Source: Gemmatimonadota bacterium (GTDB lineage: Bacteria; Gemmatimonadota; Gemmatimonadetes; Gemmatimonadales; GWC2-71-9). From it: a DNA stretch of 64,000 nucleotides. Position numbers and translations under genes: made by a program. A model generated the notes under the pieces. That model was not told the DNA's origin. It saw only the letters and a program-made list of their open reading frames with translations, and made no database searches. Positions 832 to 15,628 of the stretch are shown piece by piece (within the stretch, counting starts at the first letter, position 1; the number at the start of each line of letters is the position of its first letter). The stretch is from NCBI GenBank assembly GCA_003222085.1, contig QHUK01000007.1:1-64000 (forward strand), written 5' to 3'.

Positions 832-2040
832 GTGAGTACCGAGACCCTGCAGAACATCGCGTTATTCGAGAAGTGCAGGAGCTTCCTTCCCAAAGCGCGC
901 GAGGTGGAGGCGTCCGGGCTCCACGCCTGGTACAAGCCGATTTCCCGATCCGAAGACACGGTGGTCCTGATCGAGGGCAAAGAGCGGATCATGATGGGCT
1001 CCAACAACTATCTGGGGCTCACGCATCATCCGGAGGTCCTCGGCGCCGCGAAGGCGGCGCTGGATCGGTACGGCTCGGGCTGCACGGGGAGCCGCCTCTT
1101 GAACGGCACGCTCGATCTACACCAGCAGCTGGAAGCCGAGCTGGCGCAATTTTTCGGCAAGGAGGCCTGCCTCGTGTTTTCGACCGGCTACCAGGCAAAC
1201 CTGGGAATCGTGTCGGGACTGGTCGGCCGCGGGGACGTCGTCTTCCTGGACAAGCTGGACCACGCCTCGATCGTCGACGGCGCCAAGATGTCCTACGGCG
1301 AAACGGTGCGCTTCAACCACGGCGACCTGGGCCACCTCGAGCGGAAGCTGCAGGAGGTCCCGCCGGGCAGCGGCATCATGATCATCGTGGACGGCGTCTA
1401 CTCGATGGAGGGAGACGTCGCGGACGTGCCGAACCTGCTCAAGGTTGCGCAGAAGCACGGCGCTGCGCTCGCCATCGATGACGCCCACGCGGTGGGTGTG
1501 CTGGGCCCACGGGGCGACGGCACCGCCGCGCACTTCGGGTTGAGCGACGACGTGGACCTCATCGTAGGTACCTTCTCGAAGTCACTCGCGTCGATCGGCG
1601 GGTTCGTGGCGGGTCCGGAGGGCGTGATCGAGTTTCTCCGCTACAATGCACGGCCACTCATGTTCACGGCCGCCCTGCCGCCCTCTAACACGGCCGGCGT
1701 GCTCGCCGCATTGCACGTGATGCAGCGCGAGCCCGAACGCCGAGACTGTCTCTGGGTAAACGCTCGCCGCCTTCAGGAGGGTCTCCGCTCGATGGGGTTC
1801 GACATCGGCGCGACCGAGACGCCCATCGTCCCGTTCCTGATCGGGGAGTTCGAGAAAACACTGCTCTTCTGGCGCAAGCTGTTCGACGCCGGCGTGTTCA
1901 CCAATCCCGTCGTGCCGCCGGCGCTGCCGCCGTCGCGGTGCCGCCTGCGGACCAGCGTGATGGCGACGCACACGGCCGATCAAATCGACTACGCCCTGGA
2001 GACCTTCGGCAGGCTCGGAAAAGAGCTGGGGGTCATCTGA
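832..2040 (+). CDS. spt: serine palmitoyltransferase (alpha-oxoamine synthase family)
   Basis: This 402-aa PLP enzyme would condense L-serine with an acyl thioester to 3-ketosphinganine, the first step of sphingolipid synthesis. The fold-type I core is complete: NNYLGLTHHPEV near the N-terminus, the cofactor-stacking DDAHAVGVLG, and the Schiff-base lysine in TFSKSLASIGGF (Lys250). The GTG at 832 is chosen because the protein then has the usual family length and begins STETLQNIALFEKC; upstream in-frame codons run through the intergenic region. KBL and BioF enzymes share the fold, so sequence alone gives only the family. The following ceramide synthase-like and CerR-like genes make Spt the best call over BioF. 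Confidence 0.85.
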   Translation: MSTETLQNIALFEKCRSFLPKAREVEASGLHAWYKPISRSEDTVVLIEGKERIMMGSNNYLGLTHHPEVLGAAKAALDRYGSGCTGSRLLNGTLDLHQQLEAELAQFFGKEACLVFSTGYQANLGIVSGLVGRGDVVFLDKLDHASIVDGAKMSYGETVRFNHGDLGHLERKLQEVPPGSGIMIIVDGVYSMEGDVADVPNLLKVAQKHGAALAIDDAHAVGVLGPRGDGTAAHFGLSDDVDLIVGTFSKSLASIGGFVAGPEGVIEFLRYNARPLMFTAALPPSNTAGVLAALHVMQREPERRDCLWVNARRLQEGLRSMGFDIGATETPIVPFLIGEFEKTLLFWRKLFDAGVFTNPVVPPALPPSRCRLRTSVMATHTADQIDYALETFGRLGKELGVI

Positions 2041-2054
2041 GCACTCCGCAGATC

Positions 2055-3149
2055 GTGCCCGTGACCAACGGGCGCGGTCTGGAGCGGTTCATCGGCTTTC
2101 CTTACGACCTGCACCGCGGCGACCCACTGTGGGTGCCGCAGCTGCGGATGGACGTCCGGACCCTCCTCACGCCGGGCAAGAATCCCTTCTTCGAGCACGC
2201 CGAAGCGCAGTATTTCCTCGCCGTCCGGGACGGCCGCCCAGTCGGCCGCATCGCGGCCATCAAGAACGACGCCCATAACCGCGAGCATGGCGATCGGGTG
2301 GGATTCTATGGCTTTTTCGAGTGCGTGAACGAGCAGGCGGTGGCGAATGCCCTGTTCGACGCGGCCGCCCGGTGGCTCTCGGACAAGGACTTCCGGGTGA
2401 TGCGCGGACCGATGAACCCATCGGTCAATGACGATTGCGGGTTGCTGGTCGCGGGATTCGACACCCCTCCCACCATCATGATGCCGCACAACCCCCCATA
2501 CTATGTGGCCCTGCATCAGGGCTACGGCTTCACCAAAGCCAAGGATCTGATCGCGTTCGCGAGCCCGGAGGGCGACCCGCCCGAGCGCATCACGCGGGCC
2601 GTGAACGTCATCGCGCAGCGCAAGGGAATCACCCTGCGCCCGCTCAACATGAAGCGCTTCAAGGAAGAAGTGGAGCTGGTCAAGGCGCTGTACAACCAGG
2701 CATGGGAGCGGAACTGGGGGTTCGTTCCGCTGACCAATGCCGAAATCGACCACCTGGCGAAGCAGCTCAAGCCGATCGTGGTGCCCGACCTGGTGTGCTT
2801 CGCGGAGCGGAAGGGCCAGGTGATCGGATTCGCGGTCGCCCTGCCGGACTTCAACGTTGCCCTGAAGCACAATCCCTCCGGCCGGATCTGGGGCATCCCC
2901 AAGATTCTGTGGTACGCCCGGCGCATTCATCGTTGCCGCATACCGTTGTTGGGCACGCTGAAGGAGTACCGGGGGGCCGGCGTCGATGCGATGATGTACC
3001 ACTGGATCTGGACCAAGGGCGCGATCCACGGCTACCACTGGGGCGAGGGCGGGTGGATCCTCGAAGACAACGCCCCGATGGTCAACGCCGCGCTGCAGCT
3101 CAGCTTCCGCCCCTACAAGACGTACCGGGTCTACGACAAACCCCTGTGA
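2055..3149 (+). CDS. bcerS: bacterial ceramide synthase-like N-acyltransferase (GNAT fold)
   Basis: This is a 364-aa soluble protein of the acyl-CoA N-acyltransferase (GNAT) superfamily. The N-terminal part, with FLAVRDGRPVGRIAAIKN, and a second GNAT-like half, with VCFAERKGQVIGFAVALPD, suggest a double GNAT layout. Bacterial ceramide synthase of Caulobacter is an acyltransferase of this superfamily encoded near spt, and it N-acylates the 3-ketosphinganine product. Assignment here is by fold plus position: it lies 14 bp after spt and overlaps the CerR-like gene by 4 bp. The GTG at 2055 is the likely start; GTG at 2061 is an alternative. A different amine acceptor cannot be excluded. Confidence 0.7.
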   Translation: MPVTNGRGLERFIGFPYDLHRGDPLWVPQLRMDVRTLLTPGKNPFFEHAEAQYFLAVRDGRPVGRIAAIKNDAHNREHGDRVGFYGFFECVNEQAVANALFDAAARWLSDKDFRVMRGPMNPSVNDDCGLLVAGFDTPPTIMMPHNPPYYVALHQGYGFTKAKDLIAFASPEGDPPERITRAVNVIAQRKGITLRPLNMKRFKEEVELVKALYNQAWERNWGFVPLTNAEIDHLAKQLKPIVVPDLVCFAERKGQVIGFAVALPDFNVALKHNPSGRIWGIPKILWYARRIHRCRIPLLGTLKEYRGAGVDAMMYHWIWTKGAIHGYHWGEGGWILEDNAPMVNAALQLSFRPYKTYRVYDKPL

Positions 3150-4114
3150 GGGCATTCGTCACCGGCGGCACGGGGTTCGTCGGTGCGCATCTCGTGCGGG
3201 CGCTGCGCGCCCGGGGCGACACCGTGACCTGCCTGGTGCGAAGCACCACGAAGGCGCAGGCGCTCGGCTGGACCGACGTGCGTCTGATCCGGGGCGATCT
3301 GCACGATGCCCCGGCGCTGCGCGAGGGGTGCGCGGACGCCGAGGTGGTCTACCACGTGGCGGGCCGCATCAGCGCCCGCGATCTCGACGAATTCATGCGC
3401 GCCAACCGGGACGGCACGGCGAACGTGCTCGAGGCCGCGGCGCCGGTGTCGCTGCGACGCTTCGTGCTCGTCTCCTCGCTCGCGGCCGCGGGGCCGACCG
3501 TGCCCGGAAAGCCGATCGATGAGACCCGTCCTCCATCCCCCGTCACACCTTACGGGCAGAGCAAGCTCGCCGCCGAAGGACTCGTCCGGGCGATGGCCGG
3601 CTCGTGGACCATCGTGCGGCCGCCTACCGTGTATGGGGAGTGGGACCGGGAGGTCCTCAAAGTCTTCAAGCTGGCCCGCACGGGGTTGGCGCCGGTATTC
3701 GGTGATGGATCGCAGGAGCTGTCGGTCGTCTACGCCGGGGATCTCGCCGCGGCGCTCGTGGCGGCCGCCATCGCGCCGGCCGCGGCCAACCGGGTGTACT
3801 ACGCCGCGCATCCCGTGGTGATCACCAGCCGGGAGTTGGTCCGCGCAATCGGGCGGGCGGTGGGACGGGAGCCGCGCATCGTGCCGCTGCCCGGGCTCCT
3901 CGCCCGGGGCCTGCTCTGGACCATCGGTTCGATTGCGCATCTCGCCGGCCGGGCGACACTCTTGTCAGGCGATAAGGCGGCCGAATTCCTGGCGCCGGCC
4001 TGGACGTGCCGCGCCGATGCGTTGGCCCGCGACGCAGGGTGGCGGGCGGAAACCGATCTGGAAACGGGATTGCGGCGAACGGCAGCCTGGTATCGGAGGG
4101 AGGGGTGGCTGTGA
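3146..4114 (+). CDS. cerR: NAD(P)-dependent epimerase/reductase, CerR-like ceramide reductase
   Basis: This is a 322-aa extended short-chain dehydrogenase. It begins with the Rossmann glycine motif TGGTGFVG and carries the catalytic YGQSK (YxxxK) with an upstream serine in LVSSLAA. In bacterial sphingolipid synthesis a protein of this family (CerR) reduces the 3-keto group of the acylated intermediate. Its GTG start overlaps the stop of the acyltransferase gene (GTGA), and its own stop overlaps the start of the next gene in the same way, so the four genes are probably translated as one coupled unit. Without the context it would only be called an SDR-type sugar epimerase or dehydratase. Confidence 0.75.
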   Translation: MRAFVTGGTGFVGAHLVRALRARGDTVTCLVRSTTKAQALGWTDVRLIRGDLHDAPALREGCADAEVVYHVAGRISARDLDEFMRANRDGTANVLEAAAPVSLRRFVLVSSLAAAGPTVPGKPIDETRPPSPVTPYGQSKLAAEGLVRAMAGSWTIVRPPTVYGEWDREVLKVFKLARTGLAPVFGDGSQELSVVYAGDLAAALVAAAIAPAAANRVYYAAHPVVITSRELVRAIGRAVGREPRIVPLPGLLARGLLWTIGSIAHLAGRATLLSGDKAAEFLAPAWTCRADALARDAGWRAETDLETGLRRTAAWYRREGWL

Positions 4115-5043
4115 GTCTGCGCAGCGCCGTGGCGTCGTGGCGTCGTGGCGTCGTGGAACGCCTCACCGCCGTGGACGTCGTCACGCTGCTCTACGTCGCC
4201 GTCGCGACGGCCGCGGTCCTGGCGTTCTCCGGTCAGGACCACGCCAGCTGGGATCTGCTGCTCACCGCACACGCCCTGCTCGTGACGCTCGTGCTCGTCG
4301 CGCCGCTCGCCCGCCAGTCCGGGCCCGTGGGTCGGTTCCTGGGCGATTGGTACCCGATGCTCCTGCTCGGCGCGCTGTACGCGGAGGTCGGTGTGCTGAA
4401 CGTCGATCTCGGTTACCAGCACGACCAGGTCATTCAGCGGCTCGAGCTGTGGGTGTTCGGCTCCCAGGTGTCCTACCGCTGGATCCGCGAGATGCCGAAT
4501 CCCCTGCTCTCCTGGTTTCTACACGGCTGCTACCTCGCGTATTACGCCATTCTCTATGCGTCGCCGCTCGGTCTCTGGTTCAGCGGGCGGCCGGACGCGG
4601 CGCGACGCACGATCTTCGCCGTGATGGTGACCTTCTACCTCTGCTACGTGGTGTTCCTTTTCTTTCCCGTGGCGGGGCCGCGCTACACCTTCGAGCTGGC
4701 CCACAACGCGGCCACGTCCGTCTGGCCGGCGCGCGCCACCCAGTGGCTGCTCGACCTCGGTGACTCATGGGGCGCCGCCTTCCCCTCGTCGCACGTGGCG
4801 GCCGCCGTGGTCGCGGCACTGTGCGCCCTGCGCTACTGGCGGCCTCTCGGCCTGCTGCTCACGCCGTTGACGCTCGGACTGGTGCTGTCGGTGGTGTACG
4901 GCCAATTCCACTATGCGGTGGACGCCATGGCCGGACTGATCGTGGCATGCGCCGTGCTCGCGTCGCAGTACATCTACGCGTCGCAGCCCGCCGCCGTCAC
5001 AGCCCCGATGCCCGGACGCGAGCTCGAGACGGGACGCGCCTAG
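4111..5043 (+). CDS. PAP2/Aur1-type integral membrane phosphotransferase, candidate sphingolipid headgroup transferase
   Basis: This 310-aa protein has about seven or eight membrane segments. The PAP2 catalytic motifs are in the diverged form seen in inositol-phosphorylceramide synthase (Aur1) and related PAP2_3 proteins: [18 protein letters not shown] and [11 protein letters not shown] with the catalytic His and Asp. It is the fourth gene of the sphingolipid operon and starts inside the stop codon of the reductase gene (GTGA). Enzymes of this type move a phospho-alcohol headgroup from a glycerolipid to ceramide, or remove a lipid phosphate. Transfer to ceramide is inferred from context. The stop codon overlaps that of the convergent gene. 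An 8-bp tandem repeat sits just after the start codon. Confidence 0.75.
4128..4156 (+). repeat. 8-bp tandem repeat, 3.6 copies, near the 5' end of the PAP2/Aur1-like gene
   Basis: The unit CGTGGCGT is repeated three times, followed by CGTGG. It begins 17 bases after the GTG start. Because the unit is not a multiple of three, gain or loss of one copy would shift the reading frame. The encoded residues ([11 protein letters not shown]) precede the first membrane segment. Confidence 0.85.
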
Positions 5044-5651
5044 CGGGTAATACTGCCGGCCGCACGTGAGGCGACCGTATCCAGGTCGCCCCCCAGCGCG
5101 TCCATCTTGAGCTGGAAGCGGCAGTCGATCACCAGCAGCCCGATCACGTAGGCCGCCAGATTCACGAAGAAGATCACGCTGAAGATCACCGGATACGGAA
5201 ACCACATCCCGAAGTACAGCGCGAACCGCTTGACCCCGGGGTCGAGCTTCGAGCGGTCGGCGATGCTCGTCATCAGCAGGATCGCGGCGAGCGCGATCGA
5301 CATCAGCTTCCACGAGACGAGGCCCGTCCACGCGAACCCGGCGAAAATGGCCGCCTCGGACAGGCGGTCGACCAGCGTGTCGAGCCGCCGCCCCGATTCG
5401 GACGCGAGGCCGTACGCGCGCGCGATTCCCCCGTCGATCCCGTCCAATACCTGGCCGAGCGCCATCAGGCCGAGCCCCCCCGCCCACCCCGGCCGGCCCG
5501 TCGCGACCGCGACGCCTGCCGCCACGCTCACCGCGAACGCCGCCCAGGTCACCTGCGCCGGCGACAGGCCGAGCGTCTCGTGGCACAGCCGCAGCACCGG
5601 CTGGATCGCGCGGTCGAAGATGCGTCCGATCGCGGGTGCGAAGTCAAACAC
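5040..5651 (-). CDS. CDP-alcohol phosphatidyltransferase family protein
   Basis: This 203-aa membrane protein has the family signature DGxxARx8Gx3Dx3D, seen as DGGIARAYG followed by [10 protein letters not shown] and preceded by the extra Asp in QVLDGID. The aspartates bind the divalent metals that position the CDP-alcohol. About six membrane segments follow the short N-terminal helix. Such enzymes swap CMP for an alcohol, for example inositol, serine or glycerol phosphate. It is the last gene of a long leftward run and overlaps the upstream gene by 8 bp. The substrate cannot be told from the sequence. The stop codon shares bases with the convergent gene in a CTAG. Confidence 0.85.
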
Positions 5652-6087
5652 GATGCCGCAACCAGTAGACGCCGACGTTGCCCGCGAGGAGCGCGAGGAA
5701 CAGGATCCCCTCTTTCGCCTTGTCTGGAATGCTCGTCAGCCAGCCGCGCGTGACCCACGGAGAGTACGGGTAGAACGGCATCTTCTCGAAGCGGATACTG
5801 TAATCCATGGCAACGTGAATCGCGAAGAACAGGATCGGCAGCGGCGTTCCGAGAAACACGCACAACGGCACGATCCAGAGCAGCGCCACCGGCTCCTGCA
5901 GCGAGGATCGCCAGTAGTAGCCGCGCTTGTCCCGGAGGCCGATCGCCCGCAGGTAGAGAGGGGCCTTGACCGCGTGGTCGATGTCGACGCCCATACCGAA
6001 CGCGTAGGCAAGGACCCTGTCCCGCCCCTCGAGGCCCATCGCCTGGACGCCCAGCGTGGTCGCGAGGAAGTGCGTGACGATCGTCAC
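5644..6087 (-). CDS. YdjM-like (DUF457-type) inner-membrane protein
   Basis: This 147-aa protein has three or four membrane segments, an early histidine in [12 protein letters not shown], and a metal-site-like [11 protein letters not shown], the pattern of the YdjM family of small membrane-bound putative metal-dependent hydrolases. It starts with GTG inside the stop of the flippase-like gene (GTGA). A second member of the same family opens this gene run at 15170-15628. No biochemical role is established that could be carried over with confidence; handling of a lipid intermediate is a guess from context. Confidence 0.65.
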
Positions 6088-7082
6088 GGTGCCGCGGCGC
6101 GCGCCTGAGCCCCGCGTCCCGAGAACCACACGAGGGCGAGCCCGCCCCCGATCCAGGCGAGATCCCGGAGGCGGCTCACGATGGCAGTATAAACGCCGAG
6201 GGCCGGGTCGAGCCCCAGCAGCTGGAACACGAGGTAGAGCGAGCCCTCCTTGGTCCCGACCTCGAACGGCACGACGAAGATCACGTTCTGGACGAGGGAG
6301 GTAAGGCCGCCGATGACGTAGGCCTGCGCGTAATCGATGGTCAGGCCGACGCCCAATGCGATCAAGAGGTACTCGATCATGAAGATCGAGCGGCTGAGAT
6401 ATTCCAGCGCCACCGCCTGCACGAACCGCCGGGGGTGCCGGTGATAGAGCGCGGTGATCTGCTCGTCCATTTGCGCCAGGGTGGCGCGTTTCGGCTCGAG
6501 GCGGCGCGCCACGCGATCGAGCAGCGGCAGCCGGTGCAGCAGGTCCAACAGCCCCTCGAGCCCTCCGCGACGGTGGCCCGTCACGAGGAGCACGACGAGC
6601 GCGGCCAGCACGACGAACGCGAGGGCCAGGAACGCGAGGATCGCGGGATGAGGCGGGAGCAGCAGGGCGCCGAGCACGACTGCCGTGAGGAAGCTGAGCA
6701 GCATGCCCAGCGTGTGCAGCATCTGGTAGAGGACGACGGAACCAGCCGCCCGCCGCAGGCCCAGCCACGGTGCGACCGCGGCGATCTTGAACGGCTCGCC
6801 GCCCACGTTGACCATGGGCGTGATGAAGTTGAGCGAGAAACCGGCGACGGTGATGGCGTACGCGCGCCAGAACGGCGGACGGCTCGCCTCGTCGGCCATG
6901 CTGAGCCACCACGCTCCCGCGTTGCAGGCGCACACGACGCCGTACAGCAGGACGATCGGCACGAACAGCCACCCGGTCCGCACGGTATCGGCGAGGAGCC
7001 GCGCCACCCCGATGCGTGTCACCAGGTACCCGAAGATCGCGGAGCCGCCGACGAACAGCAGCAGCTGCAGCTTGCGGCTCAC
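6084..7082 (-). CDS. lysylphosphatidylglycerol synthase TM-domain (UPF0104) flippase-like protein
   Basis: This 332-aa polytopic protein has about eight membrane segments and the family landmarks FITPMVNVGGEPFK and FEVGTKEGSLYLVF. The domain forms the flippase half of MprF and also occurs as stand-alone proteins thought to move lipid-linked molecules across the membrane. The GTG at 7082 is chosen because it overlaps the stop of the dehydrogenase gene (GTGA) and gives a start directly before the first membrane segment. Its place between lipid headgroup genes suggests it translocates the finished or precursor lipid. No synthase domain is attached. Confidence 0.75.
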   Translation of the reverse strand: MSRKLQLLLFVGGSAIFGYLVTRIGVARLLADTVRTGWLFVPIVLLYGVVCACNAGAWWLSMADEASRPPFWRAYAITVAGFSLNFITPMVNVGGEPFKIAAVAPWLGLRRAAGSVVLYQMLHTLGMLLSFLTAVVLGALLLPPHPAILAFLALAFVVLAALVVLLVTGHRRGGLEGLLDLLHRLPLLDRVARRLEPKRATLAQMDEQITALYHRHPRRFVQAVALEYLSRSIFMIEYLLIALGVGLTIDYAQAYVIGGLTSLVQNVIFVVPFEVGTKEGSLYLVFQLLGLDPALGVYTAIVSRLRDLAWIGGGLALVWFSGRGAQARAAAP

Positions 7083-8128
7083 GCGCCGTCCGGGATCGTG
7101 ACCGTGGCGCCGTTTCGGGCGGCGACGTACGCGTGCTCGACGACGGTCGCCACCCGCCGGATGTCTTCCAGAAAGGGTCGCGCCGCCGCGCCGGGGTCGT
7201 CGCGATCGAGCGCCGCCACGAACGCCTCGAACAAGCCCGCAAACCAGCGGTGATACGCGGTTTTCTCGAGCTCCGCCGAGCAATCGAGCCGCTCGACCGC
7301 GCCCGCCCGCTCGAGGCGCAGCTCGCCGCCCGACCATTCGATTGCGCCGGCGTCGCCGACGAAGCGGATACGATTCTCGCGCGCCCGCGCGGCCCACGTG
7401 AAGAACATGGTGACCAGCCGGCCGGGATATTCGAACCGCAACGCCGCCGTGTCCTCCACGTCGTAGGCGGCGTGCCGCAGGCGACCGGTCCAGGCGCTCA
7501 CGCTCGCCGGCATGCCGGCGATGTCGAGCAGCTGATACACGAGATGGGTGCCGTGATCCAGTAACACACCGCCCCGTCCGGCCGAGCTCGTGCCGCGCCA
7601 GGGGGTCCCCGCCGCCACCCGGCCGGGGTCAGCCGCGGTGCGATGGACCGAGAACTCGGCCAGGTGCCAGCGCCCGATGGCGCCGCCCGCGAGCCATTCC
7701 TTGATCTTCATCCAGACCGGGTTGTGGCGGTATTGATGGCACGGCATCACGATGCGCCCGCTGGCCCGGGCCGCGGCCGCGATCCGGTCCGCCTCGCCGC
7801 GCGTGAGCGCCACCGGCTTCTCGCACACCACGTGGTAGCCCTGCCCGAGTCCCCAGAGGGTGAGCTCGAGGTGCGAGGCGGTCGGCGTGCAGATGTCGAT
7901 GAAGTCGAGCGGAGCGAGGTCGCGGAGCTGTTCGCGCCGGCCGAGCAGCGGAATCGCCTCCACGCGGGGCACGTCGACCGCGCTGTCCACCAGCGCGACG
8001 ACCTCGACGCGGCCGCGGACGGCCGCCGCGTCGCGGAGCGCGGGGAGGTGCGACTGCCGCGCGATGCCGCCCGCCCCGATCACGGCACCGCGGTACCGCT
8101 TCCGCTCAGGTGATCCGGGCGTATGCAT
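7079..8128 (-). CDS. Gfo/Idh/MocA-family NAD(P)-dependent sugar/polyol dehydrogenase
   Basis: This 349-aa protein has an N-terminal Rossmann fold starting GAVIGAGGIARQSHLPAL and the hallmark CEKPVALT motif whose lysine is catalytic. An alpha/beta substrate domain with DHGTHLVYQLLD follows. Family members oxidise a ring or chain hydroxyl to a ketone, for example in inositol, glucose or UDP-sugar derivatives. Together with the class III aminotransferase two genes away it could convert a hydroxyl to an amine by oxidation then transamination. It overlaps the CDP-alcohol transferase gene by 23 bp and the flippase gene by 4 bp. The substrate is not readable. Confidence 0.8.
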   Translation of the reverse strand: MHTPGSPERKRYRGAVIGAGGIARQSHLPALRDAAAVRGRVEVVALVDSAVDVPRVEAIPLLGRREQLRDLAPLDFIDICTPTASHLELTLWGLGQGYHVVCEKPVALTRGEADRIAAAARASGRIVMPCHQYRHNPVWMKIKEWLAGGAIGRWHLAEFSVHRTAADPGRVAAGTPWRGTSSAGRGGVLLDHGTHLVYQLLDIAGMPASVSAWTGRLRHAAYDVEDTAALRFEYPGRLVTMFFTWAARARENRIRFVGDAGAIEWSGGELRLERAGAVERLDCSAELEKTAYHRWFAGLFEAFVAALDRDDPGAAARPFLEDIRRVATVVEHAYVAARNGATVTIPDGA

Positions 8129-9008
8129 TACGCTCGCTGTCGAGCAAGTCGCCGAGCGCGGTAGCGTTCCACTCGTGGATCCAGAGGAGCGCGACCAGCA
8201 CCAGACTCATCCACACGGCCTCGGCCCATAGGAACGCGGAGACGTGGGCGGCGACGGCCGCCACGCCCAGCAACACGAAGCGGATGTTCTGGCCGAGCCA
8301 GGCGCACAACGGCAGCACGACCTCCTGGCGCGCACGGTACTCGGCGCGGAACGCGTCGGTGACGCCGCGACGTCGCAGGAGGCGGATGAGTTTCACGGAT
8401 CGCGGGAAGAGATGCACCTGCCGCTCCACGTAGTCGCGGTAGACGCGCGCGCCGAAGCGCTGGAGCACGGTCGCTCGCCGCTCGCCGTCGAGGTCCTCCG
8501 GCAGGTCCAGCTCGCCCCCGGTGCCGACGCCGATGTACAAGAAGGCGTTGCGCACGAAGTCTATGGCGGCGCTCTGGAAAGTGTGGGCCAGTCCCGCGGC
8601 GGCGACCAGCAGAAACGCGCCCGGCCCCCAGAACCCGCTGTGGATCAGCCGGTAGATGAGGTGGAAGTACAGATTGACGAACCGGAGGTTGTCGCTGATG
8701 CCGTCCAGCGCGCGGCCGAAGCGCGTGGAGCTGCCCCGCAGCCGCGCCAGCTGGCCATCCGCCGAGTCGAAGATGTCCGAGACGATGAAGAGGACGAAGC
8801 CGATCGCGTTGGTCCAGCGGTCCCGGTACGCAAACAGGTGGCCGGCGACGAGCCCGATCGCGAGCGACCACAGCGTTACCTGGTCGGCCGAAATCCCCGT
8901 CCGCTGGAGCGCGCGCGCGATCCGGATGCCGATGGGGCGGAAGAAATGCAGGTCCGCCCACTCCTCGACCGCACGGCCCTTATGCGATAAGTCGGTCTGC
9001 GGCTTCAC
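8106..9008 (-). CDS. CDP-alcohol phosphatidyltransferase family protein (second copy, longer)
   Basis: This 300-aa protein carries the full catalytic signature in DSADGQLARLRG and FGRALDGISD. It is longer than the 203-aa paralog at 5040-5651, with about 60-80 additional residues between membrane segments, including FGARVYRDYVERQVHLFP, a loop probably exposed to the cytoplasm. Proteins of this longer type occur beside nucleotidyltransferases that make the CDP-alcohol donor. One such gene lies at 11190 in the same run. It overlaps the aminotransferase gene by 29 bp. The reaction type is certain from the motif; donor and acceptor are not. Confidence 0.85.
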   Translation of the reverse strand: MKPQTDLSHKGRAVEEWADLHFFRPIGIRIARALQRTGISADQVTLWSLAIGLVAGHLFAYRDRWTNAIGFVLFIVSDIFDSADGQLARLRGSSTRFGRALDGISDNLRFVNLYFHLIYRLIHSGFWGPGAFLLVAAAGLAHTFQSAAIDFVRNAFLYIGVGTGGELDLPEDLDGERRATVLQRFGARVYRDYVERQVHLFPRSVKLIRLLRRRGVTDAFRAEYRARQEVVLPLCAWLGQNIRFVLLGVAAVAAHVSAFLWAEAVWMSLVLVALLWIHEWNATALGDLLDSERNAYARIT

Positions 9009-10320
9009 CGAGCACGTCCTTCATCGTCGCGAGGGCGCCCATCGCCTGATCCTCGTCGATCACCAGGGGGGGATTGATGCGAACCTCGGGGTTGTAGATC
9101 ATCGCGAGCACGCCTCGGGCCAGCAGCGTGTCGAAGATCCAGCGCGCCGTCTTCTTGTCGAGCAGCTGGCGGGTCCCGGGGACGACCAGGTCCATCCCGA
9201 TCATGAGGCCTCGGCCCCGCACGTCCGACACGATCGGCAGCTCCGCTTCCCAGCGCTGCATCTCCGCCAGCATCTTGTCGCCGAGCCGCCGGGCATGCTC
9301 CACCAGCTGGTCCTCGACGATCGTCTCGATCGTGACACGCGCCGCCGCCGCCGCCAACGGATTGCCCCCGTAGGACGACGAGCTACCGCTGGGGTTGGCC
9401 CAGGGCTTGGAGAACGCGATCGCTTCGCGCGCGATCACGCCGCTCATCGGAAAGCCCCCGCCGAATCCCTTCCCGACCGTGAGCACGTCGGGGAGCACGC
9501 TGTCGTGCTCGATCGCGAACATCTTGCCGGTGCGCCCGAACCCGGTGATCATCTCGTCGCAGATCAGGAGCGCGCCCAGCTCGTCGGCGAGCTCGCGCAA
9601 CAGCTTCAGGTAGCCCGGCGGGGGGACCACATTCCCCGCCGTACCCTGGATCGGCTCCACGAGGATCGCCGCCACGTCGCGCGTCGTCTCCAGCTGGATC
9701 TTGTGCCGCAGGAAATCCACGCAGTGCCACTCGCACGACGGGAACGTCTTGTCGAAGGCGCAGCGCGCGCACGCGGCGTAGGGTGAGAGGTAGGCGCCGG
9801 GCATCAGCGGCCCGAGCGCGTGCTTGAAGCTCGAGCCGAGCAGCGGCAGCACGCCGCCCGTCTTCCCGTGGAACCCGCCCCAGAAACCGATGACCTCCGT
9901 ATGGCCCGTGCGTGACTTGGCGAGCCGCAGCGCCGCCTCGATCGCTTCGGCCCCGCTCGAGTAGAACTGCGAGCGATTCAGATCGCCGGGCGTGAGCTCG
10001 GCGAGCAGCTTCACGAGCGCCGCGCGATGCTCCGTCGCGAAGCTGCCGACGTGCACGCGCGCGATCTGCCGCTGCATCGCCGCGACGTATTTGGGATGGG
10101 CGTATCCGATGCTCGCCACGCCCACGCCGGCCAGCAGGTCGACGTAGCGGTTGCCGTCCACGTCGTACAGGAGGGCACCCTCCCCGCGGTCGATGGCGAG
10201 CTGGCTGAACAGCGCCACGCTCTGTGTGCCCGGCGCGAGGTACATCGCCTCCGCGTCGAACACGGCCTTGGACCTGGGACCCGGAAGGGAGAGCTGGGCG
10301 CGGCGCAGCGTGTCCGTCAC
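8980..10320 (-). CDS. class III PLP-dependent aminotransferase
   Basis: This 446-aa enzyme has the class III features: SSGAEAIEAALRLAK, a PLP-stacking region FWGGFHGKTGG, LICDEMITGFGRTG, and the Schiff-base lysine in TVGKGFGGGFPMSG. A Cys-rich insert, CARCAFDKTFPSCEWHC, matches a C-x2-C-x9-C-x3-C pattern seen in part of this family. GTG at 10320 overlaps the stop of the ATP-grasp gene (GTGA) and fixes the start. The family aminates aldehydes or ketones of omega-amino acids, polyamines and amino sugars. Beside the Gfo/Idh dehydrogenase it would supply the amine of an amino-polyol. A 4-aminobutyrate or ornithine-type role is possible but less suited to the neighbourhood. Confidence 0.85.
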   Translation of the reverse strand: MTDTLRRAQLSLPGPRSKAVFDAEAMYLAPGTQSVALFSQLAIDRGEGALLYDVDGNRYVDLLAGVGVASIGYAHPKYVAAMQRQIARVHVGSFATEHRAALVKLLAELTPGDLNRSQFYSSGAEAIEAALRLAKSRTGHTEVIGFWGGFHGKTGGVLPLLGSSFKHALGPLMPGAYLSPYAACARCAFDKTFPSCEWHCVDFLRHKIQLETTRDVAAILVEPIQGTAGNVVPPPGYLKLLRELADELGALLICDEMITGFGRTGKMFAIEHDSVLPDVLTVGKGFGGGFPMSGVIAREAIAFSKPWANPSGSSSSYGGNPLAAAAARVTIETIVEDQLVEHARRLGDKMLAEMQRWEAELPIVSDVRGRGLMIGMDLVVPGTRQLLDKKTARWIFDTLLARGVLAMIYNPEVRINPPLVIDEDQAMGALATMKDVLGEAADRLIA

Positions 10321-11162
10321 GCGTGGTTCCGATGAGCAATGCGATGGGTGATGTAGGCCGCGATCGCCTGGGCCGCGTCCTCGCGAAACGGCGCGAAGCT
10401 CGGCCAGTCGTTGATGTCGATCAGCACCGGGCGGTCGGGCTCCGGAAACGCGACATCGCCTCCGAACACCTCGAGCCCCAAGATCGCCGCGGCCTCGAGC
10501 GCGAGCGCCTGGAGCCGGTTCTCGTCCACCGCGGGCCGCTCGCCGGCAAACCCTGCTTCCGAGCCGTACCAATTGAAGAAGCGACCGTCGGTCACACCGT
10601 AGAACTTCACGACCGGACCGGGAACGTGCTCCTGCAGCGCCACCCAGGCGATGCCGCGTCGCGTGAACGCCTGCAGCGCCTCCGCCACCTGGTCGAGCGA
10701 AGTCGCGACTACGTCCTCGGGCCGCTCCGCATGCACGTCACCCCGCTTGATCCAGACCTTCTGATGATCGGGGCTCAAGGCCTTGAGCTGGCCGGCGGGC
10801 GGGAGCGGCGCAGAGCTCGCATGAATGAGCGTCCGAGGGAAAGGCACCATGCTGTCGCCCAAACGCTTGACGAGGCGGTAGCGATGGCAGTTCAGCGCGC
10901 TCGAGGGACGGTTCACCACGACCGCGCCGTCGGACTCGAGCGGCATGAGCTGTTCGGCCGCGAGGGAGCCCTGGCACATGTTGAGGTACAGCGGCGCAGC
11001 CGGAAGGCGGCCCTGCTCGACCTCCAGCTCGGTGGTCTTGATCGCCCGCCAGCCCTGAGCTTCGAGCCGCGCGACCGTCGCATCCATGATGGCCGTGTCG
11101 TTCACGCGATGCTGCAGCGGTGAGTACGATGGGCTGCGGTAAATCGCGACCAGTGGGCCCAA
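10317..11162 (-). CDS. ATP-grasp-fold enzyme (RimK/ITPK-like), function unknown
   Basis: The C-terminal half of this 281-aa protein reads as an ATP-grasp domain: KVWIKRGDVHAERPEDVV for nucleotide contact, ALQEHVPGPVVKFYGV, then VFGGDVAFPEPDRPVLIDIND with acidic metal ligands. The DIND-W-P ending resembles inositol tris/tetrakisphosphate kinases (IDIN-x-FP) about as much as RimK-type ligases (ExN). The enzyme could therefore phosphorylate a polyol or join an acid to an amine. It sits between the nucleotidyltransferase and the aminotransferase. The fold is fairly sure; the reaction is not. Confidence 0.6.
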   Translation of the reverse strand: MGPLVAIYRSPSYSPLQHRVNDTAIMDATVARLEAQGWRAIKTTELEVEQGRLPAAPLYLNMCQGSLAAEQLMPLESDGAVVVNRPSSALNCHRYRLVKRLGDSMVPFPRTLIHASSAPLPPAGQLKALSPDHQKVWIKRGDVHAERPEDVVATSLDQVAEALQAFTRRGIAWVALQEHVPGPVVKFYGVTDGRFFNWYGSEAGFAGERPAVDENRLQALALEAAAILGLEVFGGDVAFPEPDRPVLIDINDWPSFAPFREDAAQAIAAYITHRIAHRNHA

Positions 11163-11189
11163 GACGGTGTCGCTCCTCGAGTCCGATGT

Positions 11190-11918
11190 TTAGGTTTCGC
11201 GCGCGGCGAGCCACGCGTTGGCGTGCTGGAGATCTGTTGGCCGATCGATGTCGATGATGCGCGCCACTTCCACCGCCGCCACTCGCCGCCCGGCCGCGAC
11301 GACCGCCTTCAGGAAGCCACGCATCCTGTTCGCGCCGCCGGCCACCGCCTCCGCCGCGGCGCCGCGAATCCCGGCGCTCAAGCCGTAGACCCCTCCGGTG
11401 ACGCACGGAGGATGAACCGGCTCGTCGCTCAGGCCCCGGACGTCGTCCCCCCCGTCCCCCCCGTCCCGCCCGCCCCGGCTGACGTACACAGGAGACTCGT
11501 CGTCCACGTACGGCGTCACAGCGAGCACCAGTTCCGCGCCTCCCCCCAAGTGCCGCTCGGTCGCCCGGTAGACCACCCGCCAGTCGGCAGGTCGCATCAC
11601 CGTATCCACCATGCTGCAGAACACGGGGCCCGCCGGCACGGCCCGCAGCCCCTCGACCAACGTGTGCAGCGAAGATGGCGTGCGACACTCCACCACCGTA
11701 AGGGGGGGGCCGAACCGCCTCCCGTCAAGCAAGCGGGCGACGGCCGGAAAGTCCGCACGAACGGCGCAGGCGAGACTCCGACACCCCAGTGCGGCGAATG
11801 TCTCGAGCAGACCAATGATCTGGGGCCGCCCAGCCACTTCGACCAGAGGCTTGGGCACGCCGATTCCACCCGCCGCGAGCCGCGACCCCTCTCCCCCGGC
11901 GAGGATCAACCCGTGCAC
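11190..11918 (-). CDS. MobA/GlmU-like NTP-transferase (sugar- or polyol-phosphate nucleotidyltransferase)
   Basis: This 242-aa protein opens HGLILAGGEGSRL followed by GVPKPLVEVAGRP, the nucleotide-binding loop and lysine of sugar-phosphate nucleotidyltransferases; SMVDTVM provides the metal-binding Asp. It would activate a phosphorylated sugar or polyol as an NDP or CDP donor. With two CDP-alcohol transferases in the run, a cytidylyltransferase of the inositol-1-phosphate type is attractive, but base choice cannot be read. An acidic, glycine-rich loop, GGRDGGDGGDD, is encoded by a short repeat around 11448-11482. GTG at 11918 follows the HAD stop by one base. Confidence 0.75.
   Translation of the reverse strand: MHGLILAGGEGSRLAAGGIGVPKPLVEVAGRPQIIGLLETFAALGCRSLACAVRADFPAVARLLDGRRFGPPLTVVECRTPSSLHTLVEGLRAVPAGPVFCSMVDTVMRPADWRVVYRATERHLGGGAELVLAVTPYVDDESPVYVSRGGRDGGDGGDDVRGLSDEPVHPPCVTGGVYGLSAGIRGAAAEAVAGGANRMRGFLKAVVAAGRRVAAVEVARIIDIDRPTDLQHANAWLAARET
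11448..11482. repeat. low-complexity C-rich repeat inside the nucleotidyltransferase gene
   Basis: The plus strand reads as imperfect copies of CCGTCCCCC, about 9 bp each. It encodes an Asp/Gly-rich loop on the minus strand. It is in frame and probably a surface insertion in the enzyme. Confidence 0.6.
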
Positions 11919-11919
11919 G

Positions 11920-12579
11920 CTACTCGAGCACCCTTTCGACCTCGGGAAGGCGACCGATCCGCGCCGTGACGACGCGCTCGCCCCCCGGCGGCGCCGTCCG
12001 TTCGGACGGAGCGAGCCAGCACGTGCGGAGGCCCACCCCGGCCGCGCCGCGGATGTCCGCCTCGAAGTTGTCGCCCACCATCCAGGCCCGCTGCGGCGCG
12101 ACCTGGAGGGCGGCCAACGCATGCCCGAAGATGCGCGGGTCGGGCTTGCTCCAACCGACCAGGGCGGAGTCGCTGAGCACGGCGAACAATCTCGCCAGAC
12201 CAAGCTCCTCCAAACAAGGCCGCAAGTTCCCGGTGAAATTGGACACGACACCGAGCCGGTAGCGCCCGGCGAGCCGTTCCAGGACCGGGCGGTTGCGTGC
12301 GACGACCTCGAGCGCTTGGGCGTGCAGCCGGCGCGCGAGGGCGCGGGCGTCCACGGGGTCGGGCACGAGCTCGACGAGCAGCCGGGCCTGAGCTTCGATG
12401 GCGGCGCGAAACCCGAGCGCCCGAATGCCCGGCAGGCGCGCGAGGGCGTCGCCCGAGACCTGGAAGAAGGAATCGAAGGCCGCGAAGTCGAGTCCGCCGC
12501 CCACGCCGCGATAGGCGGCATGGAAGCGAGGACTCCAGTGCACTCCGTCGGCGTCGAGGGTGCCCCCGAAGTCGAACAG
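11920..12579 (-). CDS. HAD-superfamily hydrolase (phosphatase)
   Basis: This protein of about 219 aa has all four HAD motifs: FDFGGTLDADG near the start (nucleophile position Asp), VVSNFTGN (motif II), WSKPDPRIF (motif III Lys) and MVGDNFEADIRG (motif IV). The first ATG/GTG/TTG in frame is the GTG at 12543, which lies after motif I and would remove the nucleophile. The reading frame is open upstream to 12633 and has a CTG at 12579 giving MFDFGGTLD, so that CTG is taken as the start. It probably dephosphorylates a pathway intermediate, judging by its place directly before the nucleotidyltransferase gene. Confidence 0.75.
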   Translation of the reverse strand: MFDFGGTLDADGVHWSPRFHAAYRGVGGGLDFAAFDSFFQVSGDALARLPGIRALGFRAAIEAQARLLVELVPDPVDARALARRLHAQALEVVARNRPVLERLAGRYRLGVVSNFTGNLRPCLEELGLARLFAVLSDSALVGWSKPDPRIFGHALAALQVAPQRAWMVGDNFEADIRGAAGVGLRTCWLAPSERTAPPGGERVVTARIGRLPEVERVLE

Positions 12580-12598
12580 GACGGCGTCGGTCGGCGAC

Positions 12599-13678
12599 TT
12601 AGTGACGGGCGTGCGACGGGTGCTCGTGCGCGGTCATCTTCATGGGCATCGACATCATGTGGTGGCCGCCCCCCTCTTCGAGCCGCATGTAGTGCCGGTA
12701 GTCCTGCTGATAGAGCGAGTCGCCGGGGTCCGCCGCGGGCCACGTCACGCCGTGGTCGGGCACGAACAGACCGCCGACCACGCCCATGCCGCCGTCCGGG
12801 ATGGGCACGCCCGTCGGGTTGTCGTACGACACGGCGATGCGGTAGCGGTGCTCCGGGACGATATGCACTCCCAGGCGCGTCAAGCCGTAGAGCATCGCAA
12901 TCGGAATGGACTCGATATGGCCGGTGGAATCCACCCGGGGCGCGGCACGGTAGATCACCTCGCCGGTCGTCACGTCCGCGAACTCGATCACGCGCCCGTA
13001 GTCGTGCATGTGCCCACCCAAGCCGACGATCCTGCCGGGCACGGCGGGGCTGCCTGCGTACAAGCGCGACGAGCGCCCCGGGGGAAGCGTGAACGACTTG
13101 TCCCCCACCGGAAAGGCCACGTCCATCTGCCATGGCGAGGCGGAGAACAGCGGCCAGGGTCGTTTCGCGGGCGTGAAGCTCATCACCAGCCGCACGCGCG
13201 CCCGGTGGTACTCGGCCGGCGTGAGGTTCTCGACCATCGCGCTCGCAACGACGTGCTCCGCGCGGTTCAGCGGCACGCCGAACAGGAGGCGCGGCAGCCG
13301 GATCGCACCGGTCTCGTGACCGGCCGCGAGCAGGCGGCGCGAGATCGGCAGAAACAGCTCGCGGTGGTCCGGGTCGATGAGATTGAAGTGATGGATCAGC
13401 TCGTCGGGGAGCGAGTGGCCGGCGCTGTCGACCACCTGTACCCGGAAGCCGTAGATGAATCCGGTCTCCGGGATCTCGAGCGTCGCGACCGGCGGCTGCG
13501 CGAGGCCATGGTGTGGTGTGTTCGCCGGCAGGTCCATCGGCGCCAGGTCGAGGACGAGCGTGCCGGCGCGAGCGTCCAGGAAGATACGGGCGCCGGGCGC
13601 GTCCGCCGCAGCGGTGGTCGCGGGAAGATCACCGGTCGCCACGACGAGGAGCAGGCTCAACAGCGCGCGAGGGGTCAT
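12599..13678 (-). CDS. secreted putative copper protein, PHM/Nod19-like, with His/Met-rich tail
   Basis: This 359-aa protein has a cleavable signal peptide (MTPRALLSLLLVVATG to about residue 25). The mature part has a paired histidine in DELIHHFNLIDPDHRE and a GGHMHDYGRVIEF segment, a layout like the copper sites of peptidylglycine monooxygenase-like and Nod19-like domains. The last 25 residues contain six histidines and six methionines (HHMMSMPMKM, HEHPSHARH), a typical copper-binding tail. It overlaps the alpha/beta hydrolase gene by 50 bp. The family call is tentative; secretion and metal binding are better supported than oxygenase activity. Confidence 0.55.
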   Translation of the reverse strand: MTPRALLSLLLVVATGDLPATTAAADAPGARIFLDARAGTLVLDLAPMDLPANTPHHGLAQPPVATLEIPETGFIYGFRVQVVDSAGHSLPDELIHHFNLIDPDHRELFLPISRRLLAAGHETGAIRLPRLLFGVPLNRAEHVVASAMVENLTPAEYHRARVRLVMSFTPAKRPWPLFSASPWQMDVAFPVGDKSFTLPPGRSSRLYAGSPAVPGRIVGLGGHMHDYGRVIEFADVTTGEVIYRAAPRVDSTGHIESIPIAMLYGLTRLGVHIVPEHRYRIAVSYDNPTGVPIPDGGMGVVGGLFVPDHGVTWPAADPGDSLYQQDYRHYMRLEEGGGHHMMSMPMKMTAHEHPSHARH

Positions 13679-14588
13679 GGCGCGGGGAATTGTAACCGCC
13701 CTCCACGCCCGGGGGCAACGGACCCTCCGATGCCTGCAACCGTCGCACGGCCGCCAGCACCGCGGCGGGCTGCTCCTCGTGGAGGAAGTGCCCTGCCCCA
13801 GGCACGCTGTCCACAACGAACGCCGGCAGCGCCGCGGCTAGGACCGCAACTTCGTCCGCGCCGATCCCGCCCCAGTGTGTCGCCGTCCCGAGGAGGAGAC
13901 GGACGGGGCACCGGACCTCGCCCAGATGTGGCCGCAATCGCTCCGGCTCACGCCGCTCGGCCATCGCAAGAAACGCTTTGAGCGTCGCGTCCAGATCGTG
14001 CGCGGCACCTGCCGTATAACCGTCGACCACTCCTTCGGTCACCCACGATGAGTCTCCCGATGCCCTGATCAGCTGTCCGCGGATCTTCTTGCGCACCAGT
14101 TTCACCCCGCCGAACAGCCTGATCCAGGGGGCGAGCTTCATGGCACGCCGAAACGCACGTGTGGCGGCACTCTCAGCCGGCCCGCCGTCGAGCGAAACGA
14201 TACCCGCGACGAGGTCGGCTCGTCGGTAGGCGAGGCGAAACGCCATCGACGCCCCCAATGAGTGCGCAACGACGATCGCCTGCCGCACGCTCAGCCGATC
14301 GAGCGCAGCCGCAATCCGGTCGGCCTGGGCGGTGAGGGAGTAGTCCGCATGTTCGGGGCGCGCCGAGCTGCCGATGCCGAGCGGTTCCACAACGATCGCC
14401 CGGTACCCGGCGGCGGTGAGGAGCGGGATCACCGCTCGGTATCCGAACGCCGAGCCGAACAGACCCGGTACGAGGACCACCGGGCGTCCCGTTCCCGTCA
14501 CGGTCACTGCGACCGACTCGGCCGCCGAAAGCGCCAGGGAGAAGGTATGAACCGTGTCCGCGACCAAGGCCAGGGTGAGGAGCCACAT
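13629..14588 (-). CDS. alpha/beta-hydrolase fold protein
   Basis: This 319-aa protein has the hydrolase core: oxyanion region VVLVPGLFGSAFGY, nucleophile elbow VAHSLGASM, a late acid region, and catalytic His in PGAGHFLHEEQP. An N-terminal hydrophobic stretch (MWLLTLALVADTVHTFSLALSAA) is probably a signal peptide, which suggests a periplasmic esterase or lipase. It ends inside the next gene with a 50-bp overlap, so the last 17 residues may be an extension of little function. The substrate is unknown. Confidence 0.8.
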   Translation of the reverse strand: MWLLTLALVADTVHTFSLALSAAESVAVTVTGTGRPVVLVPGLFGSAFGYRAVIPLLTAAGYRAIVVEPLGIGSSARPEHADYSLTAQADRIAAALDRLSVRQAIVVAHSLGASMAFRLAYRRADLVAGIVSLDGGPAESAATRAFRRAMKLAPWIRLFGGVKLVRKKIRGQLIRASGDSSWVTEGVVDGYTAGAAHDLDATLKAFLAMAERREPERLRPHLGEVRCPVRLLLGTATHWGGIGADEVAVLAAALPAFVVDSVPGAGHFLHEEQPAAVLAAVRRLQASEGPLPPGVEGGYNSPRHDPSRAVEPAPRRGDR

Positions 14589-14600
14589 GGTCCACTCCCG

Positions 14601-15173
14601 TTAGAGACGGAGCGCGGCGACGGACACTGCGTAGAGATCGCGGTACCGCCCTCGCAACCACCGGCCTGCGGACGCCACGTGTCGGCGCCCCACGGCGAGC
14701 CCCACGAGGGCGACCCCGCCGGCCACCAGCGCCCAAGTGGGTACGGGAACGAGTCGGCCCATGCCGGCGATCAGGAGCAGGCGCGGGAACCGTCCCAGGG
14801 CGACCGCGCCGAGGAACCTGGGCATCGGATATCGCGCCAACGGCGCCAGCACGCGCACCGCCGAGTCGGGGATAGGCGAAAAAATCACGAGCACGGTGGT
14901 CCAGAAGGGGGCGCGCTGGAATGCCGCGACGCTCCAGCGCACGCCGCGCCGCTCGGCAAGTCGCGCCAGTTTCGGGAGCTCCGCCGCCCAGTCCACCAGT
15001 CGATAGTTGACGCTTTCCGCGAGCGACGCGCCGAGCGTACCCACCAGCGCGAGCAGCCACGCGGGATACAGGCGCGCGTAATAGAGCAGGGTCGCCTCGA
15101 ACGCCGTCGGCAGGAACGGCGACAGGGGCCCGTGCACCAGCAGCGCGAGCGCGAAGAACGTCACGAGCTTCAC
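14601..15173 (-). CDS. VTT/DedA-like small membrane protein
   Basis: This 190-aa protein has four or five hydrophobic segments. FEATLLYYARLYPAWLLALVG and the later YPMPRFLGAVALGRFPR resemble the SNARE-associated (VTT/DedA) family, including the conserved GR-x-PR near the second re-entrant region. DedA proteins are linked to undecaprenyl-phosphate and phospholipid translocation. GTG at 15173 overlaps the stop of the upstream YdjM-like gene (GTGA). The family match is from a few short motifs, so it is moderate. Confidence 0.55.
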   Translation of the reverse strand: MKLVTFFALALLVHGPLSPFLPTAFEATLLYYARLYPAWLLALVGTLGASLAESVNYRLVDWAAELPKLARLAERRGVRWSVAAFQRAPFWTTVLVIFSPIPDSAVRVLAPLARYPMPRFLGAVALGRFPRLLLIAGMGRLVPVPTWALVAGGVALVGLAVGRRHVASAGRWLRGRYRDLYAVSVAALRL

Positions 15174-15628
15174 GCCAGGAATCCGGTGTAGCGCCACGCC
15201 ACCACGGCGAACACCGCACCCTCCAGGATCCACGCCCACGGCTGCCGGTAGTAGCCGATGTACATCGCGCGCCCCCAGTATCCCGTGTTCTTCCAGAGGT
15301 TGAGCGAATAGCGGCGCCGGCTGAGCGGTAGCAGCAGCGGGAGACCGGTGTCGGTCGGCAGGTCGGCGAGCACGTGCGCCACGACGCTCGCCAGCGCCAG
15401 TCCGCCGAGCCAGGGGCCGAACAGCGCGAGCGCGAGCGCTCCCACGGCGCTGCAGAACAAGAGACTGTGACTCCACGTGCCGTGGAAGTCGGGCCGCGCC
15501 CAACCGGCCCGGATGATCAGGGAATCGGCGTTCGGAAGGAATTGCGCCGCCCCGACCACCAGGAACGTCTCTGGTCGCGGATCGAGGGACGCGATCGCGA
15601 GTGCGATACCAAGGTGCCCGAATTGCAT
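15170..15628 (-). CDS. YdjM-like inner-membrane protein (putative metal-dependent hydrolase)
   Basis: This 152-aa protein has GHLGIALAIAS at the N-terminus, FLPNADSLI, WSHSLLFCSA and AHVLADLPTDTG, the spaced His/Asp pattern of the YdjM (PF04307-type) family, within four membrane segments. It is the first gene of the leftward run that ends at 5040. A shorter paralog is encoded at 5644-6087. Enzymatic activity has not been firmly shown for the family as far as I know. Confidence 0.7.
   Translation of the reverse strand: MQFGHLGIALAIASLDPRPETFLVVGAAQFLPNADSLIIRAGWARPDFHGTWSHSLLFCSAVGALALALFGPWLGGLALASVVAHVLADLPTDTGLPLLLPLSRRRYSLNLWKNTGYWGRAMYIGYYRQPWAWILEGAVFAVVAWRYTGFLA

Follow-up and report, generated by a model that had tools for sequence, protein, structure and literature searches.

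Bacterial inositol lipids are thought to be uncommon, and one of the two routes proposed for them rests on prediction only. For Bacteroides and Prevotella, Heaver et al. (2022; PMC9246714) proposed an alternative inositol-lipid cluster on the grounds that genes for an NTP transferase, a CDP-alcohol transferase and an HAD protein lie near the gene for inositol-1-phosphate synthase (MIPS). B. vulgatus and P. veroralis, which carry this NTP/CDP-OH/HAD/MIPS cluster, make phosphoinositol ceramide, and the proximity to MIPS has exceptions such as P. copri (PMC9246714). Here we analysed a comparable gene run in bases 1 to 64,000 of an 82-kb contig (QHUK01000007.1) from the 3.5-Mb genome of a soil bacterium of the Gemmatimonadota; this 64,000-nucleotide stretch is referred to as the window. 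The conserved core of the run is read as a CDP-alcohol (Kennedy-type) pathway for an aminoinositol phospholipid, with a probability of about two in three (0.66); the reactions, the position of the amine, the nucleotide and the lipid acceptor are what we infer.

Thirteen genes lie on the minus strand at positions 5040 to 15628 and encode YdjM, a VTT/DedA-like protein, an alpha/beta-hydrolase, a protein without a Pfam match, an HAD phosphatase-like protein (HAD), a MobA-like nucleotidyltransferase (NTP), an ATP-grasp-like enzyme, a class III aminotransferase (AT3), a CDP-alcohol phosphotransferase (CDPa), a Gfo/Idh/MocA dehydrogenase (Gfo), a UPF0104/LPG_synthase_TM protein, a small membrane protein (MH) and a second CDP-alcohol phosphotransferase (CDPb). 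The last seven genes, from the ATP-grasp gene to CDPb, overlap consecutively by 4 to 29 bases. A sequence-only reading of this DNA had treated the thirteen genes as one functional run. All the genes it named are present on one strand, but only seven of them (HAD, NTP, ATP-grasp, AT3, CDPa, Gfo and UPF0104) and the MH-CDPb pair are conserved widely. The genes for YdjM, the VTT protein, the hydrolase and the protein at 12602-13678 keep their position only in the nearest genera, and were therefore excluded from the pathway. Thus, the unit consists of a seven-gene core and a separable MH-CDPb pair.

NTP homologs were found in 33 of 298 sampled Gemmatimonadota genomes, one of them weak (G294). The order HAD-NTP-ATPgrasp-AT3-CDPa-Gfo-UPF0104 was constant in every sufficiently long locus from 32 genomes of the phylum that carry NTP, with a gap of about 2 kb between Gfo and UPF0104 in G245. 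The MH-CDPb pair was present in many, not all, of these loci, and its orientation relative to the core can be inverted (L057). When the ATP-grasp protein was used as a query over genome contigs, 205 relatives were obtained, of which the best 80 were kept and their neighbours mapped by tblastn. Among these 80, the same enzyme set was found in Verrucomicrobiota, Acidobacteriota, Ignavibacteriota, Bacteroidota, Myxococcota, Elusimicrobiota, Thermodesulfobacteriota and Eiseniibacteriota. A chance grouping of the genes is excluded because the order is held in the phylum and other phyla have the set as well; the orthologs stay together, rather than lying apart from each other and from lipid genes. 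One cluster (L135) is on a contig titled Patescibacteria (BroJett037) of a 1.2-Mb genome, which is probably misbinned.

The occurrence of MIPS in the other phyla is the strongest evidence on the identity of the polyol. MIPS was detected in 39 of 41 cluster genomes outside Gemmatimonadota, compared with 6 of 14 control genomes subjected to the same family search. About 25 loci outside the phylum have MIPS within the cluster, typically right after HAD, in the layout NTP-ATPgrasp-[AT3]-CDPa-[Gfo]-UPF0104-HAD-MIPS. HAD is directly upstream of MIPS in many Bacteroidota and Ignavibacteriota loci, and in L123 MIPS begins 3 bases past the HAD match. Because MIPS is linked to or inside the cluster elsewhere, the polyol is most likely inositol, and it is highly likely that the gene run makes an inositol-derived lipid headgroup.

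In the proposed pathway, MIPS, encoded elsewhere in the genome of the window, would make inositol phosphate, from which HAD (11920-12579, minus strand, as are all the core genes) is predicted to release inositol. HAD is an HAD-IA phosphatase-like protein (Pfam Hydrolase, 6.8e-18) with motifs conserved in 16 orthologs; its frame has, at 12543-12579, no ATG, GTG or TTG ahead of the catalytic DFGGT motif, and the nearest candidate start is the CTG at 12579. Gfo (7079-8128; GFO_IDH_MocA_C3, 1.1e-22), in which EKP and D191/H195 are invariant and which scored 44.5 bits with the iolG model (cut-off 355), is predicted to oxidise one inositol hydroxyl to a ketone. AT3 (8980-10320; Aminotran_3, 3.2e-92), a class III pyridoxal phosphate-dependent enzyme whose catalytic Lys (K283 in A4) and Asp are invariant, is the predicted keto-inositol aminotransferase that would convert the ketone to an amine, giving an inosamine. 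The ATP-grasp enzyme (10317-11162) would then phosphorylate the inosamine. This protein is below every Pfam gathering cut-off, carries the very specific motifs KRGDVHA and NDWPSFAP, and was assigned from weak profile matches together with a confident model (pLDDT 90) whose nearest solved folds are ATP-grasp. NTP (11190-11918; NTP_transf_3, 1.5e-11), which reached no curated family, is a predicted cytidylyltransferase for (amino)inositol phosphate and would turn the phosphorylated aminoinositol into its CDP derivative. CDPa (8106-9008; CDP-OH_P_transf, 6.9e-11), with an invariant DxxDGxxAR-8x-GxxxDxxxD motif and AF2299 as the nearest solved protein, is predicted to attach the headgroup by moving phospho-aminoinositol onto a membrane lipid. 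The UPF0104 protein (6084-7082; PF03706, 1.5e-25), encoded in most cluster loci, is a predicted flippase for the finished lipid. The order of dephosphorylation, modification, rephosphorylation and activation would be coherent, given that HAD stands beside MIPS at the other end of the cluster. The earlier proposal is supported in that an oxidation and transamination module could supply a polyol phosphate which, once nucleotidyl-activated, would be the substrate of a CDP-alcohol transferase. A MurNAc or GlcNAc specificity of NTP, which that proposal had named as evidence against itself, was not supported, since NTP scored 24 bits with the MurU model NF045761 (cut-off 250).

AT3 and Gfo are an optional pair within the cluster. 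Among 42 loci outside the phylum, both genes were found in 29, neither in 12 and Gfo alone in 1; some of the 12 loci are short or have no CDPa (e.g. L151 and L154). The sole exception to the pairing is L126 of Myxococcota, where an ATP-grasp gene, MIPS and Gfo occur with no AT3, NTP or HAD nearby. In a tree of the ATP-grasp protein with 47 rows, the AT3 state changes four times, and Gfo follows it in three of four independent pairs. The metagenome-assembled genome of Melioribacter roseus (G323) contains a plain cluster (L141), an aminated cluster (L144) and two MIPS genes. In six genomes, the cluster AT3 proteins scored 537-913 bits, whereas no other class III enzyme exceeded 342; for Gfo, the cluster proteins scored 184-593 bits and paralogs of the same genome no more than 99. 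Because of this gap, AT3 and Gfo look like dedicated subfamilies. It is likely that the two enzymes aminate the inositol headgroup. The aminated polyol might instead be another sugar or polyol, with MIPS-derived inositol serving the plain steps only and Gfo and AT3 making a second modification; the location of MIPS outside the cluster in Gemmatimonadota, Verrucomicrobiota and Acidobacteriota loci and the broad substrate range of both families would suit this. However, aminated and plain clusters have all other genes in common, the order is the same in Ignavibacteriota with MIPS ending both forms, and MIPS accompanies nearly all cluster genomes of the other phyla, as given above. We therefore regard a different aminated polyol as improbable.

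Several observations weigh against the aminoinositol phospholipid pathway. MIPS is present in 278 of the 298 Gemmatimonadota genomes (93%) irrespective of the cluster and lies outside it; its presence, hence uninformative, was dropped as a test within the phylum. In the genome of the window, MIPS is on another contig and is preceded by a near-canonical PIP synthase (PIPS; 158.5 bits, cut-off 170) at L184:7727-9933 (G000:C64), so that ordinary phosphatidylinositol is probably made as well, by a separate route. In the predicted structure of NTP (pLDDT 93), the folds of RmlA, GlmU, MurU and IPCT are about equally near, and the fold search was for this reason rejected as a means of deciding the substrate. 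MH and CDPb are not accounted for by the proposed steps. To our knowledge, no class III aminotransferase acts on inosose, and the tree test for the association of AT3 and Gfo gave a p of 0.25, with too few independent events for significance. No spt match was found in three cluster genomes of the phylum (G041, G119 and G239), where the search gave only a lower-scoring relative, or in 3 of 36 genomes elsewhere. The three genomes of the phylum are not strong counter-evidence, because about two losses in 33 are expected at a completeness of 93-95%. Finally, the graspetide ligase PsnB (2.1e-5) matched the ATP-grasp protein by profile as well as ITPK4 (2.6e-5) did and stood first by a hair, RimK and other ITPKs being further matches, and the predicted structure was closest to ligases, namely D-Ala-D-Ala ligase, ArgX/LysX and RimK.

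The last of these points would agree with a scheme in which the headgroup is inositol-based and receives an amino acid or other acid from the ATP-grasp enzyme, which would be a ligase acting on the headgroup itself or, where AT3 is present, on its amine; the direct substrate of NTP would be the MIPS product. The MIPS product is already phosphorylated, and a kinase would seem redundant in the plain clusters. Ligases match this fold generally, however, and the fold search was rejected as a means of deciding the substrate of this enzyme as well. The ATP-grasp gene is kept in clusters without AT3 and Gfo, so that the amine is not needed, and ITPK-family inositol kinases appear repeatedly in the profile matches. 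NTP and the ATP-grasp protein are fused in two Bacteroidales loci (L179, with NTP at 1-231 and ATP-grasp at 234-509, and L183), which suggests consecutive steps. We consider a ligase unlikely. A kinase for inositol or aminoinositol is favoured because the gene is kept in amine-less clusters and fused to NTP, and this role is moderately probable. In the comparison with the Pfam family PF05770 (ITPK), 2 of 26 ATP-grasp members matched, with a best value of 0.0088. Tandem ATP-grasp genes were observed beside AT3 in three Ignavibacteriota/Bacteroidota loci (L138, L140 and L144).

The run is tail-to-tail with a plus-strand operon, spt-cerS-cerR-PAP2_3, the two converging at about 5040. The first gene, spt (796-2040), encodes a serine palmitoyltransferase that matched SerpalmtaseCFB best among all models (504 bits, cut-off 640). 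It is followed by a GNAT-like gene (2034-3149), a predicted ceramide synthase with a weak GNAT match that adjoins spt across phyla, and by an extended SDR gene (3149-4114; Epimerase, 4.8e-38), a predicted ceramide reductase. Bacterial cerS is GNAT-like and cerR is an extended SDR, and the two genes fit these assignments. The last gene, PAP2_3 (4093-5043; PF14378, 1.2e-19), encodes a predicted AUR1-like headgroup transferase to ceramide, in which the FPSSH...HYxxD motif is invariant in 8 orthologs; a comparison with solved structures gave no AUR1 match, and the AUR1-like label rests on the Pfam family. The bacterial ceramide pathway has been reviewed (PMC10191378), and the spt, cerS-like and cerR-like genes of a bacterial ceramide operon are found together in the window.

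The linkage to sphingolipid genes extends beyond the window, and the conserved synteny with spt for which the sequence-only reading had called was seen in four phyla. The cluster is flanked by spt and a GNAT gene in Verrucomicrobiota and by spt, GNAT and SDR genes in Acidobacteriota, and spt and two GNAT genes stand ahead of it in four Bacteroidota loci (L123, L124, L125 and L148). L118 also encodes a sphingolipid desaturase and a fatty-acid hydroxylase. Ignavibacteriota-type clusters enclose genes for an MlaE permease, an ABC ATPase and MlaD (L134:7431-9943; L136:5003-7522), which suggests dedicated lipid transport. These genes bear on the question of whether the run makes a membrane lipid or a soluble or cell-wall polymer constituent, such as a phosphoinositol-type compatible solute, a teichoic-like polymer or capsule. 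Di-inositol phosphate is likewise formed by a cytidylyltransferase acting with a CDP-alcohol transferase (IPCT/DIPPS), and CDPa resembles transferases of that kind. On the other hand, the fact that spt, cerS-like and cerR-like genes neighbour the cluster in several phyla, the MlaE/MlaD genes, the lipid-modifying genes of L118 and the flippase-like UPF0104 protein all point to a lipid, and a soluble or polymer product is very improbable.

Where the cluster meets the spt operon, the headgroup of the aminoinositol lipid would probably end on ceramide, either directly by CDPa or by transfer from a glycerolipid by PAP2_3. In Gemmatimonadota, spt and its neighbours adjoin the core in genera g1, g13, g14, g21 and g36, and are usually on a separate contig elsewhere; the PAP2_3 gene is beside the cluster only in some genera. 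Of the 103 genomes of family f2, 10 are spt-positive, and these include all four that carry the cluster (two genera); the association is statistically weak, as three of the four belong to one genus. The earlier suggestion that the headgroup may reach ceramide by the PAP2 transferase does not extend to the whole family of clusters: a ceramide acceptor is not general, since some cluster genomes gave no spt match and PAP2_3 is adjacent only in some genera. Desulfoferrobacter suflitae DRH4, a cultured strain whose cluster (L152) includes AT3 and Gfo, gave no spt match, and a glycerolipid is the predicted acceptor there. For the lineage of the window, ceramide is slightly favoured as the final acceptor.

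MH (5644-6087), which has no Pfam match, is paired with CDPb (5040-5651; PF01066, 6.8e-11), whose catalytic motif was intact by inspection. The two genes stay together in Gemmatimonadota, and five Ignavibacteriota loci also have the pair, with 54-56% identity for MH. A function of CDPa or CDPb as PIP synthase was rejected, since the PIPS model gave 39.6 and 49 bits, respectively (cut-off 170). Outside the core, the minus-strand protein at 12602-13678 is conserved, belongs to no Pfam family, contains a His motif, GGHMHDYGR, and is encoded upstream of HAD in g1, g13, g14 and g21. At L035:4361-6913 and L040:13068-15636, further SDR and PAP2_3-like genes stand between the alpha/beta-hydrolase gene and the gene of the 12602 type; they share 32-39% identity with the copies of the spt operon.

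Taken together, the chances are a little better than even that the cluster defines a new class of bacterial membrane lipid, phospho-aminoinositol on ceramide or diacylglycerol, encoded in at least 7 phyla, whose synthesis runs through CDP-inosamine, employs an ATP-grasp enzyme as inositol kinase and came about when one oxidase-transaminase pair was added to a general CDP-inositol lipid pathway. The predicted bacterial route would then gain an ATP-grasp kinase as candidate for a missing step, would be widely distributed and would include a variant of its own that makes a zwitterionic aminoinositol headgroup. Such amine-bearing lipids would alter the surface charge of the membrane. In other bacteria, membrane surface charge affects resistance to antimicrobial peptides. 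Plain and aminated clusters differ by two genes, once within one genome, and offer a ready contrast for testing. No published description of aminoinositol or inosamine lipids was found in the open-access literature searched.

The locus can be compared with five described systems. Like IPCT/DIPPS, it combines a cytidylyltransferase, here a predicted one, with a CDP-alcohol transferase for inositol phosphate; IPCT/DIPPS, however, yields soluble di-inositol phosphate, and the profile search for IPCT/DIPPS relatives suggested by the sequence-only reading, made with the curated model NF041135, gave 16, 30 and 35 bits for NTP, CDPa and CDPb, far under the cut-off of 580. In the Caulobacter CpgA-D system (PMC13228409, PMC11324152), which is encoded in a sphingolipid cluster, a phosphorylated small molecule is activated with CTP to provide a ceramide headgroup, much as proposed for the window, but its headgroup is phosphoglycerate, it uses a ceramide kinase, and the pathway is described without an aminotransferase or MIPS. 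The phosphoinositol ceramide pathway BT_1522-1526 of B. thetaiotaomicron ends in an inositol sphingolipid and includes spt and an AUR1-like enzyme of the PAP2 family, for which the window has spt, a predicted PAP2_3 counterpart and a proposed inositol-based sphingolipid product, whereas its route employs PIP synthase and PIP phosphatase without CDP-inositol, and CDPa and CDPb miss the PIPS models. In the scyllo-inosamine branch of streptomycin biosynthesis, a Gfo/Idh enzyme oxidises inositol, and transamination and then phosphorylation follow. The same sequence of reactions is proposed for the window, although the streptomycin aminotransferase belongs to the DegT family and serves an antibiotic precursor, whereas the enzyme of the window is of class III and a lipid product is proposed.

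The closest system is the alternative Bacteroides cluster, in which, as in the window, genes for an NTP transferase, a CDP-alcohol transferase and an HAD protein stand together; functions are predicted in both. The main text of PMC9246714 names no ATP-grasp enzyme and no aminotransferase, whereas AT3 and Gfo are present in the window, and MIPS is encoded in another part of the genome. None of the open-access papers searched described the amination branch. The locus tags of the Bacteroides NTP transferase (RS13095), CDP-alcohol transferase (RS13105) and HAD protein (RS13115) are spaced such that one gene would fit between each neighbouring pair. The ATP-grasp protein was found in 12 of 119 genomes of the order Bacteroidales, in loci arranged as NTP-ATPgrasp-CDPa-(UPF0104)-HAD-(MIPS), with no AT3 or Gfo wherever the flanks allow. 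The view that no known pathway corresponds to the run thus has to be revised for the form without AT3 and Gfo: compared by gene content, order and locus-tag spacing, this plain form is very probably the alternative inositol-lipid cluster of Bacteroides.

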